Assembly: GCA_947501635.1 (NCBI GenBank)
Contig: CANMWT010000003.1
Span: 310,001-374,000, forward strand
Direction of reading: 5' to 3'
Length of the DNA stretch: 64,000 nucleotides
Source: an uncultured Roseobacter sp.
GTDB lineage: Bacteria; Pseudomonadota; Alphaproteobacteria; Rhodobacterales; Rhodobacteraceae
Made by a program: the position numbers and the translations under genes. The first letter of the stretch is position 1. Each line of letters opens with the position of its first letter. Shown here piece by piece: positions 24,344-27,961 of this stretch. The notes under the pieces were generated by a model. That model was not told the origin of the DNA. It ran no database searches and was given only the letters and a program-made list of their open reading frames with translations.

Positions 24344-25378
24344 TTATGACAAACTACCGTGCAAAATGGCGAGCAATTCCGTCATATCCTTGGGTAAAGG
24401 GGCCTCAAATCGCATGTTTTCGCCCGAAACTGGATGAACAAAACCCAAAACAGCTGCATGCAATGCCTGCCGTTTGAAACATTTGACCGCCGCCGCCGCG
24501 GCGTCCGACAGCGCATTGGCCGGTAATTTGCGTTTTCCACCGTAGACCGGATCACCCACCAGACCATGGCCCGCATGGGCAAGATGCACCCTGATCTGAT
24601 GCGTACGGCCTGTCTCAAGCCAGCACTCCATCAAGGCGAGCACCTCAGGATCTCCGAAACGTTCAACGGTGCGTGCCCGTGTCACCGCATGCCGCCCGCC
24701 CTGAAACAGCACGGCCTGTCTCTGGCGGTCTGTTCGGTGGCGAGCCAGTTGTGTGGTGATCTTTAGGATATTACCTGGCTCAAAGCGCGCGCCCTTGATG
24801 CCGCGCAGGCGTGGGTCATTGGCATCCGGCACACCGTAGACCAGACAGTTGTAGTACCGCTCGACACTATGCGCTTCGAACTGTGCGGCAAGCCCATGGT
24901 GCGCTGCGTCCGACTTGGCGACCACCAGCAACCCACTGGTGTCCTTGTCAATGCGATGCACGATCCCGGGCCGCTTGACCCCACCCACACCGGATAAAGC
25001 GCCGCCGCAATGCGCCAAAAGCGCGTTCACCAATGTGCCCGACGGTGTGCCCGGCGCCGGATGCACCACCATGCCCGCGGGTTTGTTCACGACAATCAGA
25101 TCATCGTCTTCAAACACCACATCCAGCGCGATCGGCTCCGGCAGGATATGACTGTCTTGCGCCTCTTCAACTTCAACAACCACTTCCGCACCCGCTGCGA
25201 CACGCGCCTTCGCATCGCGGACAACAGCGCCATCAACGGTCACACCGCCTTCTTCGATCAGGCGCGCCAAGCGCGTTCGCGAAAGTGACGCATCCACTGG
25301 AACATCCCGCGCCAGCGCCTTATCAAGGCGCGGCGGCGGTGCCGCGTCGATTTGAAACCGGATATGACGAACAGACAT
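24344..25378 (-). CDS. RluA-family 23S rRNA pseudouridine synthase (RluD-like)
   Basis: A 344-residue enzyme. An N-terminal S4 domain ('RLDKALARDVPVDASLSRTR', 'LIEEGGVTVDG') precedes the catalytic domain, with the RluA motif 'VHRIDKDTSGLLVVAKSD' holding the catalytic Asp. 'TGRTHQIRVHLAHAGHGLVGD' is the second signature. This architecture fits RluD, which modifies helix 69 of 23S rRNA. The start at 25378 lies inside the same CATG as the divergent DUF6476 start. An in-frame extension would overlap that gene antisense and is rejected. Confidence 0.93.
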   Translation of the reverse strand: MSVRHIRFQIDAAPPPRLDKALARDVPVDASLSRTRLARLIEEGGVTVDGAVVRDAKARVAAGAEVVVEVEEAQDSHILPEPIALDVVFEDDDLIVVNKPAGMVVHPAPGTPSGTLVNALLAHCGGALSGVGGVKRPGIVHRIDKDTSGLLVVAKSDAAHHGLAAQFEAHSVERYYNCLVYGVPDANDPRLRGIKGARFEPGNILKITTQLARHRTDRQRQAVLFQGGRHAVTRARTVERFGDPEVLALMECWLETGRTHQIRVHLAHAGHGLVGDPVYGGKRKLPANALSDAAAAAVKCFKRQALHAAVLGFVHPVSGENMRFEAPLPKDMTELLAILHGSLS

Positions 25379-25688
25379 GGACAATCCCGAACTGACCCCC
25401 GGCCCCGACGCGGAAGAGCCCGCAAACCTGAAGTTTTTAAGACGTTTGGTCACGGTCCTGACCGCGACGATGATAGGCGGCGTTCTACTCATCATCGGAC
25501 TGATTGTCATCCGCTTCTATGATGTGCCCCCCCCTTTGCCCGAGACACTGCAACTACCCGACGGTGCGACCGCCTTGTCTTTTACCCAAGGCACCGACTG
25601 GTACGCTGTGGTTACAACCGACGATATGATCCTGATTTATGACCGCGTGACCGGCGCTTTGACACAAACGGTAAAGATCACCAGATAA
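25377..25688 (+). CDS. DUF6476 family membrane protein
   Basis: A 103-residue protein of unknown function, found next to the RluA/RpoH genes in Rhodobacteraceae. There is one membrane segment ('LVTVLTATMIGGVLLIIGLI', residues about 25-46), then a periplasmic domain ('PPPLPETLQLPDGATALSFT', 'GTDWYAVVTTDDMILIYDRV') that resembles a short beta-propeller-like strand repeat. Its ATG overlaps the divergent rluA-family ATG by two bases. Confidence 0.88.
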   Translation: MDNPELTPGPDAEEPANLKFLRRLVTVLTATMIGGVLLIIGLIVIRFYDVPPPLPETLQLPDGATALSFTQGTDWYAVVTTDDMILIYDRVTGALTQTVKITR

Positions 25689-26100
25689 CCCTCATGTGCC
25701 GGCCTGATCCTTAGGTCGGCTTAGTAAAGGCACGACAGGTATCACCTACTACGATCATCGGTTGGTCGATTCGAATCAAACACCGCTAAAATTCGTCGAT
25801 GCAGGCCGCCAAACCGTCGAAACGCGGTGAACCATGTGTTTCGACTTACGCGCAAAAATCCTTCAAACCGGGATGGGGCCAGCCGACTGCTCGCGGTCAC
25901 TCAACTCTTAACCAGAAAATTTTAGTCAATCACGCCAGCACACATGCCATTGTTCATGATTTCTCAACAGCGCGTAAAAATACGTGAAAATGCGCTTAAA
26001 ATATGGCTATAGTTGCGTCGAAGGCCGTCGCCACGGGTATTGGCGGAAACGCGGGCTTCGTTGTTTTTACCAGGGTGGGGGACACTCTGGAGTATGTTAA
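25689..26100. other. 412-bp stretch with no recognised gene
   Basis: It contains a weak hairpin right after the DUF6476 stop (GCCGGCCT/AGGTCGGC, about 25700-25722, no T-run). The rest is lower in GC than its surroundings and has no convincing coding frame. It must hold the promoter of the lipoprotein gene at 26101; GGTGGGGG is present 25-30 nt before that start but no clear ribosome binding site. Confidence 0.5.
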
Positions 26101-26715
26101 ATGGTGTTTCAAAATCGTCTCGTCGCAGTAGCGCTTCTTTCATCCGCAGGCTTTTTGTCTGCCTGTGCAATTCCGTCTGATGGCGTCATAACGCGCGCTT
26201 CACAGGTTGATGCGGCATTGAGCAATCAGGATGGTGAATGCCACTATAGCGCTATCTCAAACACTCTGGCCGAGCAGCTGGAAGAGCGCGATGACGCGGA
26301 CCGCGTCATGCGAGATCTGAACGACCTGTGCCCTGACCTCGAAGTAGCCTTTTTGAGGGACATCAATCGCACAGCCGCCCGTGCGGGCACCGCAACCCTG
26401 GCCGGCGGCAGCTTTTCCGATCCTGAAGGCACGGAAGGCGCTCCCAGCTCTGGCGGCGGAACCAGTTCAACCGGCGGGGACAGCCCTGGTGGCGACTCTG
26501 GTGGAAGCGATTCCAGCGGCGGCGACTCGGGTGGCGGTGACTCCGGTGGCGGTGACTCCAGCGGTGGCGACTCGGGCGGCGGTGACTCCGGTGGCGGCGA
26601 CTCCAGCGGTGGAGACTCAGGCGGCGGCAAGGGCTCCAAAGGTAACAACGGTGGCGGGAACGGCAGTGAAGGGTCCAGCCCTGGCCGTGGCAGAGGCGCC
26701 AACCAAGACGAGTAA
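26101..26715 (+). CDS. Lipoprotein with Gly/Asp/Ser repeat tail
   Basis: A 204-residue predicted lipoprotein; family not recognised. The signal peptide ends in the lipobox 'FLSAC' (Cys22). Residues 23-100 form a small helical domain with two further Cys ('GECHYSAISNTLAEQLEERD', 'LNDLCPDLEVAF'). From about residue 115 the tail is almost only Gly, Asp and Ser in pentapeptides D-S-(S/G)-G-G, arranged as 15-residue units (45 nt) in about 2.6 copies, then a short Lys/Asn/Gly/Arg end. Such tails can be flexible, surface-exposed or metal-binding linkers; which applies here is not known. Base composition of the repeat is GC-rich compared with flanks. Confidence 0.78.
   Translation: MVFQNRLVAVALLSSAGFLSACAIPSDGVITRASQVDAALSNQDGECHYSAISNTLAEQLEERDDADRVMRDLNDLCPDLEVAFLRDINRTAARAGTATLAGGSFSDPEGTEGAPSSGGGTSSTGGDSPGGDSGGSDSSGGDSGGGDSGGGDSSGGDSGGGDSGGGDSSGGDSGGGKGSKGNNGGGNGSEGSSPGRGRGANQDE
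26505..26631 (+). repeat. 45-bp tandem repeat coding for (DSSGG)(DSGGG)(DSGGG)
   Basis: In-frame near-identical 45-bp units within the lipoprotein gene, each built from three 15-bp sub-units. Unit differences are mostly third-position changes (GGT/GGC, GAC with TCC/TCG). Changes in copy number would keep the reading frame and only alter tail length. Confidence 0.8.
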
Positions 26716-26736
26716 GCCAGAACCCAACAAATTACC

Positions 26737-26776
26737 CCAGAGGCCCCGTGCTGCAGTCTCGCAGCCGGGGTTCTGG
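26737..26776 (+). terminator. Hairpin after the lipoprotein gene
   Basis: Long stem with small bulges: CCAGA, CCCCG and GCTGC pair with GCAGC, CGGGG and TCTGG around a 6-nt loop. It starts 22 nt after the stop. There is no clean T-run, so termination is plausible but unproven. A second short stem (CGTGCC/GGCACG) lies at 26827-26843. Confidence 0.5.
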
Positions 26777-26902
26777 TGGTTGATTGGGATGTACTCCAGC
26801 GTGTCGTAAGCATCAGGCAGCGACGGCGTGCCGCATTGGCACGTCAAAGTTGTATGGTGAAAGCCCAGCAATGAAACAATATGGCCCTCGCCAAAGTGAC
26901 GA

Positions 26903-26935
26903 TGTGTTTACACAGTTTTCAACCAAGCGTATTAA
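26903..26935 (+). promoter_or_regulatory. Promoter and palindromic operator of the Doc toxin operon
   Basis: -35 TTTACA (26907-26912), 17-nt spacer and -10 TATTAA (26930-26935). The predicted transcription start falls about 3 nt before the ATG at 26945, so the mRNA would be nearly leaderless. The -35 box lies in the palindrome TGTGT-TT-ACACA (26903-26914), a natural place for autorepression by the toxin-antitoxin complex. Confidence 0.45.
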
Positions 26936-26944
26936 GAAGCGGTA

Positions 26945-27115
26945 ATGTCCAAGAAGGCGAAATATAACATTCGAAAGAGCGGCAAGGGTTACACCGTCTC
27001 GACCGCAAGCGGCAAAGTCATTGCGTGTACTAATGTGACTCCGAAGTCTTCCAGCACGGCCGCGATTGTCGGCAAGACCCACGCTGACGCGTTGAAACGA
27101 CTCGCGAAACGCTAA
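26945..27115 (+). CDS. 56-residue basic protein, putative antitoxin of the Doc toxin
   Basis: A small gene whose TAA stop overlaps the Doc start as TAATG. The product has 10 Lys and 3 Arg but one Asp, so it is strongly basic. It opens with beta-like residues ('KYNIRKSGKGYTVSTASGKV') and ends in a likely helix ('THADALKRLAKR'). Phd, the classic Doc antitoxin, is ~73 residues with an N-terminal DNA-binding domain and an acidic C-terminal neutralising segment; neither is visible. The antitoxin role is inferred from position and coupling only. It might bind DNA or nucleic acid through its charge. No family recognised. Confidence 0.65.
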   Translation: MSKKAKYNIRKSGKGYTVSTASGKVIACTNVTPKSSSTAAIVGKTHADALKRLAKR

Positions 27116-27489
27116 TGCGTCATTATCGGGTCACATTGGCCGATGCGCTGGAAGCCCACGCGGTCGCCTTACACTACGGCGGCGGTCTGGACGGTATGAG
27201 CAGCATCGACGCCCTAGAGGGCGCGCTAGGGCGTCCGTATCATGGCTATCACCACCGCATCTGGCATAAGGCCGCTGCACTCTTGCACGGGCTGGCGTCC
27301 GCGCATGGCTTTGCGGATGCGAACAAGCGAACCGCATGGATCGTGACGATCTTAATGATCAACCGCAGTGGATATGATCTCAGTTTGAGAAATAGCGACC
27401 AGATTGATGATGTGGCCGTCGATGTCGTCACCGGCGCAATGTCCGAGTCCGAACTGGTCGATTGGTTTCGCCAGCGCATAAGCAAATAA
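27115..27489 (+). CDS. doc: Doc (death-on-curing) family toxin, Fic fold
   Basis: A 124-residue protein. The Fic/Doc active-site loop is 'HGFADANKRTAW' at residues 64-75, keeping His64, Phe66, Asp68, Asn70, Lys71 and Arg72. In phage P1, Doc phosphorylates elongation factor Tu and stops translation. The N-terminus 'HYGGGLDGMSSIDALEGALGR' matches the family ('YGGxxGxRD...L..A...P'). It is translationally coupled to the basic small gene upstream and followed by a hairpin. All key catalytic residues are intact, so it is probably active. Confidence 0.9.
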   Translation: MRHYRVTLADALEAHAVALHYGGGLDGMSSIDALEGALGRPYHGYHHRIWHKAAALLHGLASAHGFADANKRTAWIVTILMINRSGYDLSLRNSDQIDDVAVDVVTGAMSESELVDWFRQRISK

Positions 27490-27490
27490 A

Positions 27491-27518
27491 AAGGCCCACG
27501 TCACTAACCGTGGGCCTT
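27491..27518 (+). terminator. Terminator-like hairpin after doc
   Basis: Perfect 10-bp stem AAGGCCCACG/CGTGGGCCTT with an 8-nt loop, one nt after the doc stop; it is followed by GTCCTCTT, a weak T-run. Confidence 0.75.
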
Positions 27519-27660
27519 GTCCTCTTCGCACACCGCATTAGCGTGACGGCTAAGGCTGGCGAGACGCTGTTGATCCAACCGAGCCTTTACTACGCGCAGG
27601 GAAAGACACCACACGCCCTGTCGCAGGAGATTGTGGACGCCGACGCAGAGCGCCTGTCCC
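27519..27660 (+). other. Possible remnant of a coding sequence
   Basis: One plus-strand frame reads with protein-like composition ('HRISVTAKAGETLLIQPSLYYA', here cut short, then a stretch ending 'EIVDADAERL'), but there is no start signal and it runs straight into the hexanucleotide repeat. It could be the decayed tail of a phage or island gene; it is not annotated as a gene. Confidence 0.25.
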
Positions 27661-27699
<39 letters not shown>

Positions 27700-27832
27700 G
27701 GCTGACGATCTAGGTGCTGCAGTTTGGAACGCAACAGGCTCTCCAGGCGCTCAGGTGATATTGGCTGATTTCCACAAGTTTACAGCCTGAAAAAAATAGC
27801 ACGAGTTCACTAGAAGTTCGCTAGGTGACGTT

Positions 27833-27853
27833 TTGGCCCACACCGTGGGCCAA
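27833..27853. repeat. 9-bp inverted repeat downstream of tRNA-His
   Basis: TTGGCCCAC-ACC-GTGGGCCAA is a perfect hairpin 32 nt beyond the tRNA 3' end. It shares the arm GGCCCAC/GTGGGCC with the hairpin after doc. Lacking a T-run, it may be an RNA 3' processing or termination structure for the tRNA transcript. Confidence 0.5.
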
Positions 27854-27884
27854 TTCCGATTCCATTAAATCATTGATTTTACGG

Positions 27885-27961
27885 TGGTACCACCTCCTGG
27901 GCTCGAACCAGGGACCTCCTGATCCACAATCAGGCGCTCTAACCAACTGAGCTAAGGCGGC
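27885..27961 (-). tRNA. tRNA-His (GTG anticodon)
   Basis: A 77-nt cloverleaf with encoded CCA: acceptor stem GCCGCCT/AGGTGGT (with G1-U72 and one further G-U), D-arm TTAGCTCAGTTGGTTAGAGC, anticodon loop TTGTGGA and T-arm CCTGGTTCGAGCCCAGG. The anticodon is GTG. The base before G1 is T, so the extra G(-1) found in most tRNA-His is not encoded, and the discriminator is A73. This is the known state in a large clade of alphaproteobacteria, whose histidyl-tRNA synthetase is adapted to it. Confidence 0.97.

Follow-up and report, generated by a model that had tools for sequence, protein, structure and literature searches.

A Doc toxin module with a small basic, probably Phd-tailed antitoxin in an uncultured Roseobacter, and apparent near-cognate doc starts among its relatives

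How is a Doc toxin held in check when the protein encoded just ahead of it lacks the Phd domain? The question is raised by a 64,000-nucleotide (nt) stretch of DNA from an uncultured Roseobacter sp. (contig CANMWT010000003.1, positions 310,001 to 374,000; hereafter the window), in which a small gene at 26945..27115 (+ strand, ATG start, 56 residues, net charge +12) precedes a doc toxin gene at 27115..27489 (+ strand, ATG start, 124 residues). The two open reading frames (ORFs) share one base, within the TAATG at 27113..27117 (+ strand) that provides both the stop of the first and the start of the second. Positions 26945-27489 quite probably form a type II toxin-antitoxin (TA) module in which a basic antitoxin with a Phd-like tail is coupled to Doc by translational restart, with near-cognate restart codons in relatives. 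The start-codon pattern of the relatives is more surprising than the type of antitoxin, and the chances are about even that a clade of Doc genes, mostly from the window's family (Rhodobacteraceae), starts at AUC or AUA nested in the end of the antitoxin gene, giving a toxin dose limited by initiation factor 3 (IF3) and a TA pair that senses the state of initiation.

The first-pass annotation had described a Doc toxin with an intact Fic/Doc loop (His64 to Arg72), coupled through TAATG to a 56-residue partner with 13 basic and 1 acidic residues. This observation was correct, as the ORFs, their overlap, the Doc matches, the intact loop, the composition and the lack of an antitoxin library match all agree with it; the start given there, 26903, lies 42 nt 5' of the antitoxin ORF. 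The window toxin scores above the cut-offs of both Pfam Fic (36 bits, cut-off 24) and NCBIfam DOC_P1 (TIGR01550; 45.8 bits, cut-off 38.65), also matches the PHROG 'Doc-like toxin' and has the Doc fold, and its best solved relatives by sequence are the P1 Doc structures. The active loop HGFADANKR (residues 64-72, codons 27304..27330, + strand), placed by Doc alignment and comparison with P1 Doc, fits HxFxDxNKR with Lys71 as in P1 Doc, and H64, F66, D68, K71 and R72 are invariant across 29 aligned Docs. By analogy with P1 Doc, the window toxin would be expected to inactivate EF-Tu by phosphorylation.

The small protein contains 13 Lys or Arg residues and one acidic residue, with no Glu. Nothing in Pfam, NCBIfam, PHROGs or PADLOC came near a cut-off with it, and none of 17 family members compared with the libraries matched convincingly (the lowest values, E 0.0062 and E 0.011, belonging to a single member each). 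The Phd/YefM domain (PF02604) is absent: Pfam returned nothing for the protein up to E=1, and the same library does detect P1 Phd over residues 1-51. Ribbon-helix-helix and MazE/AbrB families of Pfam likewise went unmatched up to E=1, a result to be read beside three other Doc partners of such a look that also score only below cut-off. The predicted fold consists of a three-stranded sheet (residues 7-30) followed by a long helix (33-55), with a mean predicted local distance difference test score of 73 (89 and 86 in the last two blocks, 61-71 in the first four) and a predicted template modelling (pTM) score of 0.35; the comparison with a PC4-like single-stranded DNA-binding fold (beta-sheet, then C-terminal helix) was made against this low-pTM (0.35) prediction. 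Class I Fic antitoxins of the FicA/VbhA kind carry the inhibitory motif [S/T]xxxE[G/N]. An antitoxin of FicA, VbhA or YhfG type, with the active site blocked by an inhibitory-helix motif, is highly improbable here, since [S/T]xxxE[G/N] does not occur in the window protein, which has no Glu.

Among 394 genomes of the window's family, 97 held a Doc at E <=1e-5, and 29 family matches besides the window's own Doc showed 42-61% identity (E <1e-24). With further sources (390 and 385 genomes, plasmids and the best 80 of 383 from a genome-contig scan), a close set of 58 loci was assembled from 56 non-redundant loci and 2 Sinorhizobium plasmid loci, duplicates of one locus (same last 100 residues) being dropped. 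Outside the 58 are broken Docs (L053, L176/L185), a broken copy in genome G018, a short plasmid match (L188) and further copies whose locus was not fetched, e.g., in G431 and G333; the broken Docs L148 and L187 are included in the start counts and left out of the tree and of the doc codon and internal-start analyses. Searching plasmids for Doc returned 3 records, the phage search returned none, and no relative was among 72 Doc pattern hits on viral contigs. With the 56-residue protein as query, plasmid matches stayed at chance level (E >=2), and 390 genomes of the order yielded, besides the protein itself, nothing better than E 0.0036.

All 58 close loci have an upstream partner gene with one conserved C-terminus, as counted with a partner picker that favours such tails, and at each of them the partner stop adjoins, or falls inside, the doc start. 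The partners have a median length of 61.5 residues and a median net charge of +8.5 (+5 or higher in 47 of 58), with start codons chosen by the analyst and longer open frames available to a few; a frequent form reads 'VKGGWxxRDAxTGRFVxV...KSxxxVKEASxKRxxALKRLADR'. Three longer partners (L036, L041, L048) combine other N-terminal parts with the same kind of end, and neither L048 nor a shortened form of L041 matched Pfam up to E 0.05. Five partners from distant loci were tested; one scored above the cut-off for Phd/YefM, and another three showed a resemblance to MazE or ribbon-helix-helix families that stayed below cut-off. A spurious 56-codon ORF beside a solitary Doc is barely credible: the weak Shine-Dalgarno sequences ahead of both window genes would suit such a view, but the partner is conserved in 58 of 58 loci, and differences among the antitoxin codons of relatives show a third-position excess (111 of 216).

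In Salmonella Phd, Phe56 (-18) and Leu70 (-4) are described as 'gatekeepers' of Doc inhibition, with Leu67 (-7), His63 (-11) and Ile59 (-15) as hot spots (PMC9207808). The partner tails coincide with these positions gap-free. All 58 have Leu at -4 and Leu or Met at -7, 52 have Ala at -8, 56 end in Arg (-1), and 51 carry a large hydrophobic residue at -18. The last 22 residues of the window antitoxin (codons 27047..27112, + strand), delimited by register and profile comparison and a tail-blind pattern, place L53 at -4, L50 at -7, H46 at -11, V42 at -15 and A39 at -18; judged by sequence only, they make up a putative Doc-neutralising tail as in Phd/YefM, without the -18 gatekeeper. Scored on a profile built from the 58 partner tails, those of P1 Phd and Salmonella Phd each rank above all except 1 of the 2197 C-termini in the background set. 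A looser tail pattern, applied tail-blind to the longest upstream ORF, was found at 51 of 56 close loci and at 78 of the 83 other Doc loci having an upstream ORF (of 85), compared with 27 of 2197 background C-termini, and similar tails end Doc partners having other N-termini. Because this pattern is common across close and distant loci, Doc antitoxins appear to share the tail as their Doc-binding part and to exchange the N-terminus.

A mode of Doc neutralisation unlike that of Phd, e.g., via the basic N-terminus or through mRNA binding, could be argued for the small protein from the missing Phd/YefM domain, the net charge of +12 and the Ala at the -18 gatekeeper. Yet the tail, not the basic part, is most conserved in the family, and such a mode is quite unlikely. 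The earlier proposal that the neutralising mode differs from that of Phd is not borne out, as the C-terminus is in register with the Phd tail that binds Doc and resembles it, even if the window member lacks one of the two gatekeepers. The proposal of an unrecognised antitoxin class stands for the N-terminal part in the libraries searched. The antitoxin thus represents an uncatalogued N-terminal type, and its neutralisation is probably Phd-like.

In many relatives, doc appears to begin at a very unusual codon. Between 30 nt 5' of the antitoxin stop and the conserved doc N-terminus, 37 of 58 doc frames contain no ATG, GTG or TTG, and 36 of these 37 have ATC, ATA or ATT there (as the last such codon in 30, 5 and 1, respectively). 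At 33 loci, ATC or ATA lies five bases before the antitoxin stop, in the contexts ATCGCTAG (11), ATCGGTAA (9) and ATCGGTAG (7), plus variants. The 36 near-cognate loci span 27 genus codes (code-less loci counted as one), and 29 of them belong to the window's family. When a uniform rule was applied to both groups, a canonical start was missing in 30 of 56 close loci, compared with 1 of 85 other Doc loci. A subclade of four (L169, L171, L172, L173) has no ATC or ATA at -5 and a TTG six bases farther upstream. No toxin-antitoxin pair with ATC/ATA-type starts was found in the open-access literature, among the matches listed.

Codon choice at -5 suggests that the near-cognate codon is under selection. 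The codon before the last Arg of the antitoxin is mostly Asp or Asn, and an ATC or ATA at -5 requires its third base to be T. At loci in the +1 frame with Asp or Asn, this codon ends in T in 37 of 39 (GAT 23, GAC 2, AAT 14, AAC 0), whereas the rest of these antitoxin genes uses GAT in 31 of 83 and AAT in 15 of 55 (binomial 1.8e-8 and 1.3e-8); the remaining two loci, L173 and L060, carry a TTG or ATT at another place. At third-frame loci, T is found in 4 of 8 (Fisher p 0.005).

Could Doc in the ATC relatives begin instead at an internal TTG, GTG or ATG? RefSeq places the start of the Sinorhizobium terangae Doc at an internal TTG, and after the anchor used for counting, TTG stands at codon 6 in 7 of 32 loci and GTG or TTG at codon 4 in 5 of 32. 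Such a start is nevertheless unlikely. At 6 of 32 loci, 3 of these 6 being close kin, the first internal canonical start comes only at codon 54-86 (codon 54 in L158, L160 and L162; 77-86 in L054, L167 and L170), and a Doc starting there is implausible because its N-terminal part would be lost. The stretch skipped by the S. terangae RefSeq start holds the positions of the invariant D10 and the near-invariant H15, G23 and G24, and doc codons 2-19 are constrained as protein, with 242, 117 and 546 differences at the three codon positions (65 pairs). At the S. terangae locus itself (L186:900-1620), RefSeq lists no antitoxin; at that of S. chiapasense (L187:900-1620), the Doc frame appears broken and is absent from the RefSeq listing, whose gene table is incomplete.

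A fused product, arising when ribosomes pass from the antitoxin into Doc by frameshifting or by reading through the stop, would draw on the abutting frames of the two genes and on locus L038 (1071-1634), where antitoxin and Doc share one frame with just a TAG between them. It is very unlikely, as the frame relation differs among loci (in-frame at 3, +1 at 42 and third-frame at 13) and, at the 33 loci with ATC or ATA at -5, both the stop (TAG 20, TAA 12, TGA 1) and the Arg codon (CGG 16, CGC 14, AGG 3) vary. L038 itself may reflect a sequencing error, read-through or another kind of start.

Several points weigh against a Phd-tailed module with near-cognate restarts in relatives. Regarding the tail, the case for the window member suffers most from its Ala at -18, the position of the Phe56 gatekeeper; the pattern of the tail-blind test misses P1 Phd itself, and 18 of 85 distant Doc partners pass a 1% background threshold on the close-clade profile, in a background that still held partner ORFs and in which 21 of 2245 reached the P1 score. 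Regarding the start codon, the window doc uses ATG, so this part rests on the relatives; a canonical codon occurs in the search span at 21 of the 58 loci (ATG 5, GTG 7, TTG 9), 4 of these 21 also have ATC at -5, and at L038 every one of the listed start codons is missing. No strong Shine-Dalgarno sequence precedes doc (medians -3.55 for the 36 near-cognate and -2.3 for the 21 canonical loci), and no conserved RNA fold was found at the junction, where an ungapped alignment of 30 loci gave a consensus energy of 0, as did shuffles. The codon statistics ignore kinship, the near-cognate label changes at least 11 times on a weakly resolved tree, and adding 2 in-frame Asp loci (both T) as controls gives a Fisher p of 0.012. 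Finally, 12 of 32 loci offer a canonical codon within 4-6 codons after the anchor, and doc may start slightly later there.

If the module works as a Phd-tailed antitoxin coupled to Doc by restart, the C-terminal helix of the 56-residue protein would bind the Doc groove like the Phd tail, and its basic N-terminal sheet would probably stand in for the Phd DNA-binding domain and bind operator DNA. One 9-nt inverted repeat and no promoter-like site were found 5' of the antitoxin gene; a 24-codon frame (26871-26945) whose TAATG end overlaps the antitoxin start may be due to chance. Ribosomes finishing the antitoxin would restart at the overlapping ATG to make Doc, as the overlap suggests, and in many relatives the putative restart codon is the ATC or ATA nested within the final codons of the antitoxin gene. 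IF3 is reported to reject start-codon pairing that is weak at the third base (PMC10158994), and the Streptomyces sigR gene is described as starting at GTC under IF3 repression, leaving the antisigma factor in excess (PMC5472188). By analogy, a near-cognate restart should be weak and IF3-repressed, and antitoxin would then be made in excess, keeping Doc below it. The sigR-rsrA pair is alike in that the active protein arises from a non-canonical start codon with the inhibitor thereby in excess, but its inhibitor gene lies downstream and the pair is one of sigma and antisigma factors (PMC5472188), whereas in the Doc relatives the toxin ATC or ATA lies inside the antitoxin gene and IF3 control is presumed.

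Compared with Phd-Doc of phage P1 and Salmonella, the antitoxin gene likewise comes first and its tail has Leu at -4, and P1 Phd-Doc also shares the toxin motif HxFxDANKR and a TAATG overlap of phd and doc. Unlike Phd, the window antitoxin has no N-terminal Phd/YefM domain, is basic (+12), comprises 56 rather than 73 residues and lacks a large hydrophobic residue at -18. For Enterococcus faecalis Phd-Doc, a C-terminal antitoxin helix inserted in Doc and an N-terminal beta-sheet DNA-binding part unlike that of P1 Phd are described, both resembling what is predicted for the window antitoxin, yet Doc dimerisation is proposed there as the blocking step; the two antitoxins are compared by description only (PMC13034048). 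Pairing of Doc with several antitoxin types is already published (PMC1626090, PMC2701414). TasA-TasB, a composite mazE-doc, and other reported Doc groups similarly have unrelated upstream antitoxins with a conserved end and a stop/start overlap, but differ in the antitoxin N-terminus, and groups 4-9 and orphan genes described there may include the window family (PMC1626090). YhfG-Fic likewise places a small basic antitoxin next to a toxin of the Fic/Doc superfamily, but YhfG is described as enterobacterial and mostly helical (PMC2701414), whereas the window toxin is a Doc with Lys71 and a sheet is predicted for its antitoxin.

The module sits in a stretch of ~2.2 kilobases (kb; 25689-27884) between an ORF at 25377-25688 and a tRNA-His (27885-27961, - strand). 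In 4 of 11 fetched same-genus loci, these two neighbours are 27-39 nt apart; in the other 7, no counterpart of the ORF at 25377-25688 lies within the sequence examined. In the same-genus genomes G220, G234 and G238, the close Doc is on a contig other than that of the tRNA-side match. Because the neighbours are adjacent in same-genus loci and Doc lies elsewhere in these three genomes, the 2.2 kb segment has the appearance of a local insertion; a search for tRNA duplication at it was negative. The end of an rpoD-type gene is a possible second favoured site, as the Doc pair at five loci (L032, L037, L039, L046, L049) is placed directly 3' of the end of what we take to be an rpoD-type sigma factor gene. 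Right after the doc stop, a 10-pair hairpin (27491..27518) is terminator-like on the - strand, with 1 site found against a shuffle mean of 1.0, which alone is not significant. The same 2.2 kb holds a Ser/Gly/Asp-repeat lipoprotein-like ORF (26101-26715), and short tandem GCTCCT units occur downstream of the pair at 27661-27699.

The conserved tail suggests that Doc antitoxins can be identified by this part rather than by the N-terminal domain recorded in databases, making basic partners missed by annotation findable. If the ATC and ATA starts are confirmed, they would amount to a simple, conserved device for keeping toxin levels under those of the antitoxin, and would explain the truncated annotation of such a toxin, of which there is one plasmid example. 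Should the nested AUC and AUA starts indeed set the toxin dose through IF3, lost initiation fidelity or lost IF3 would raise the level of the toxin.
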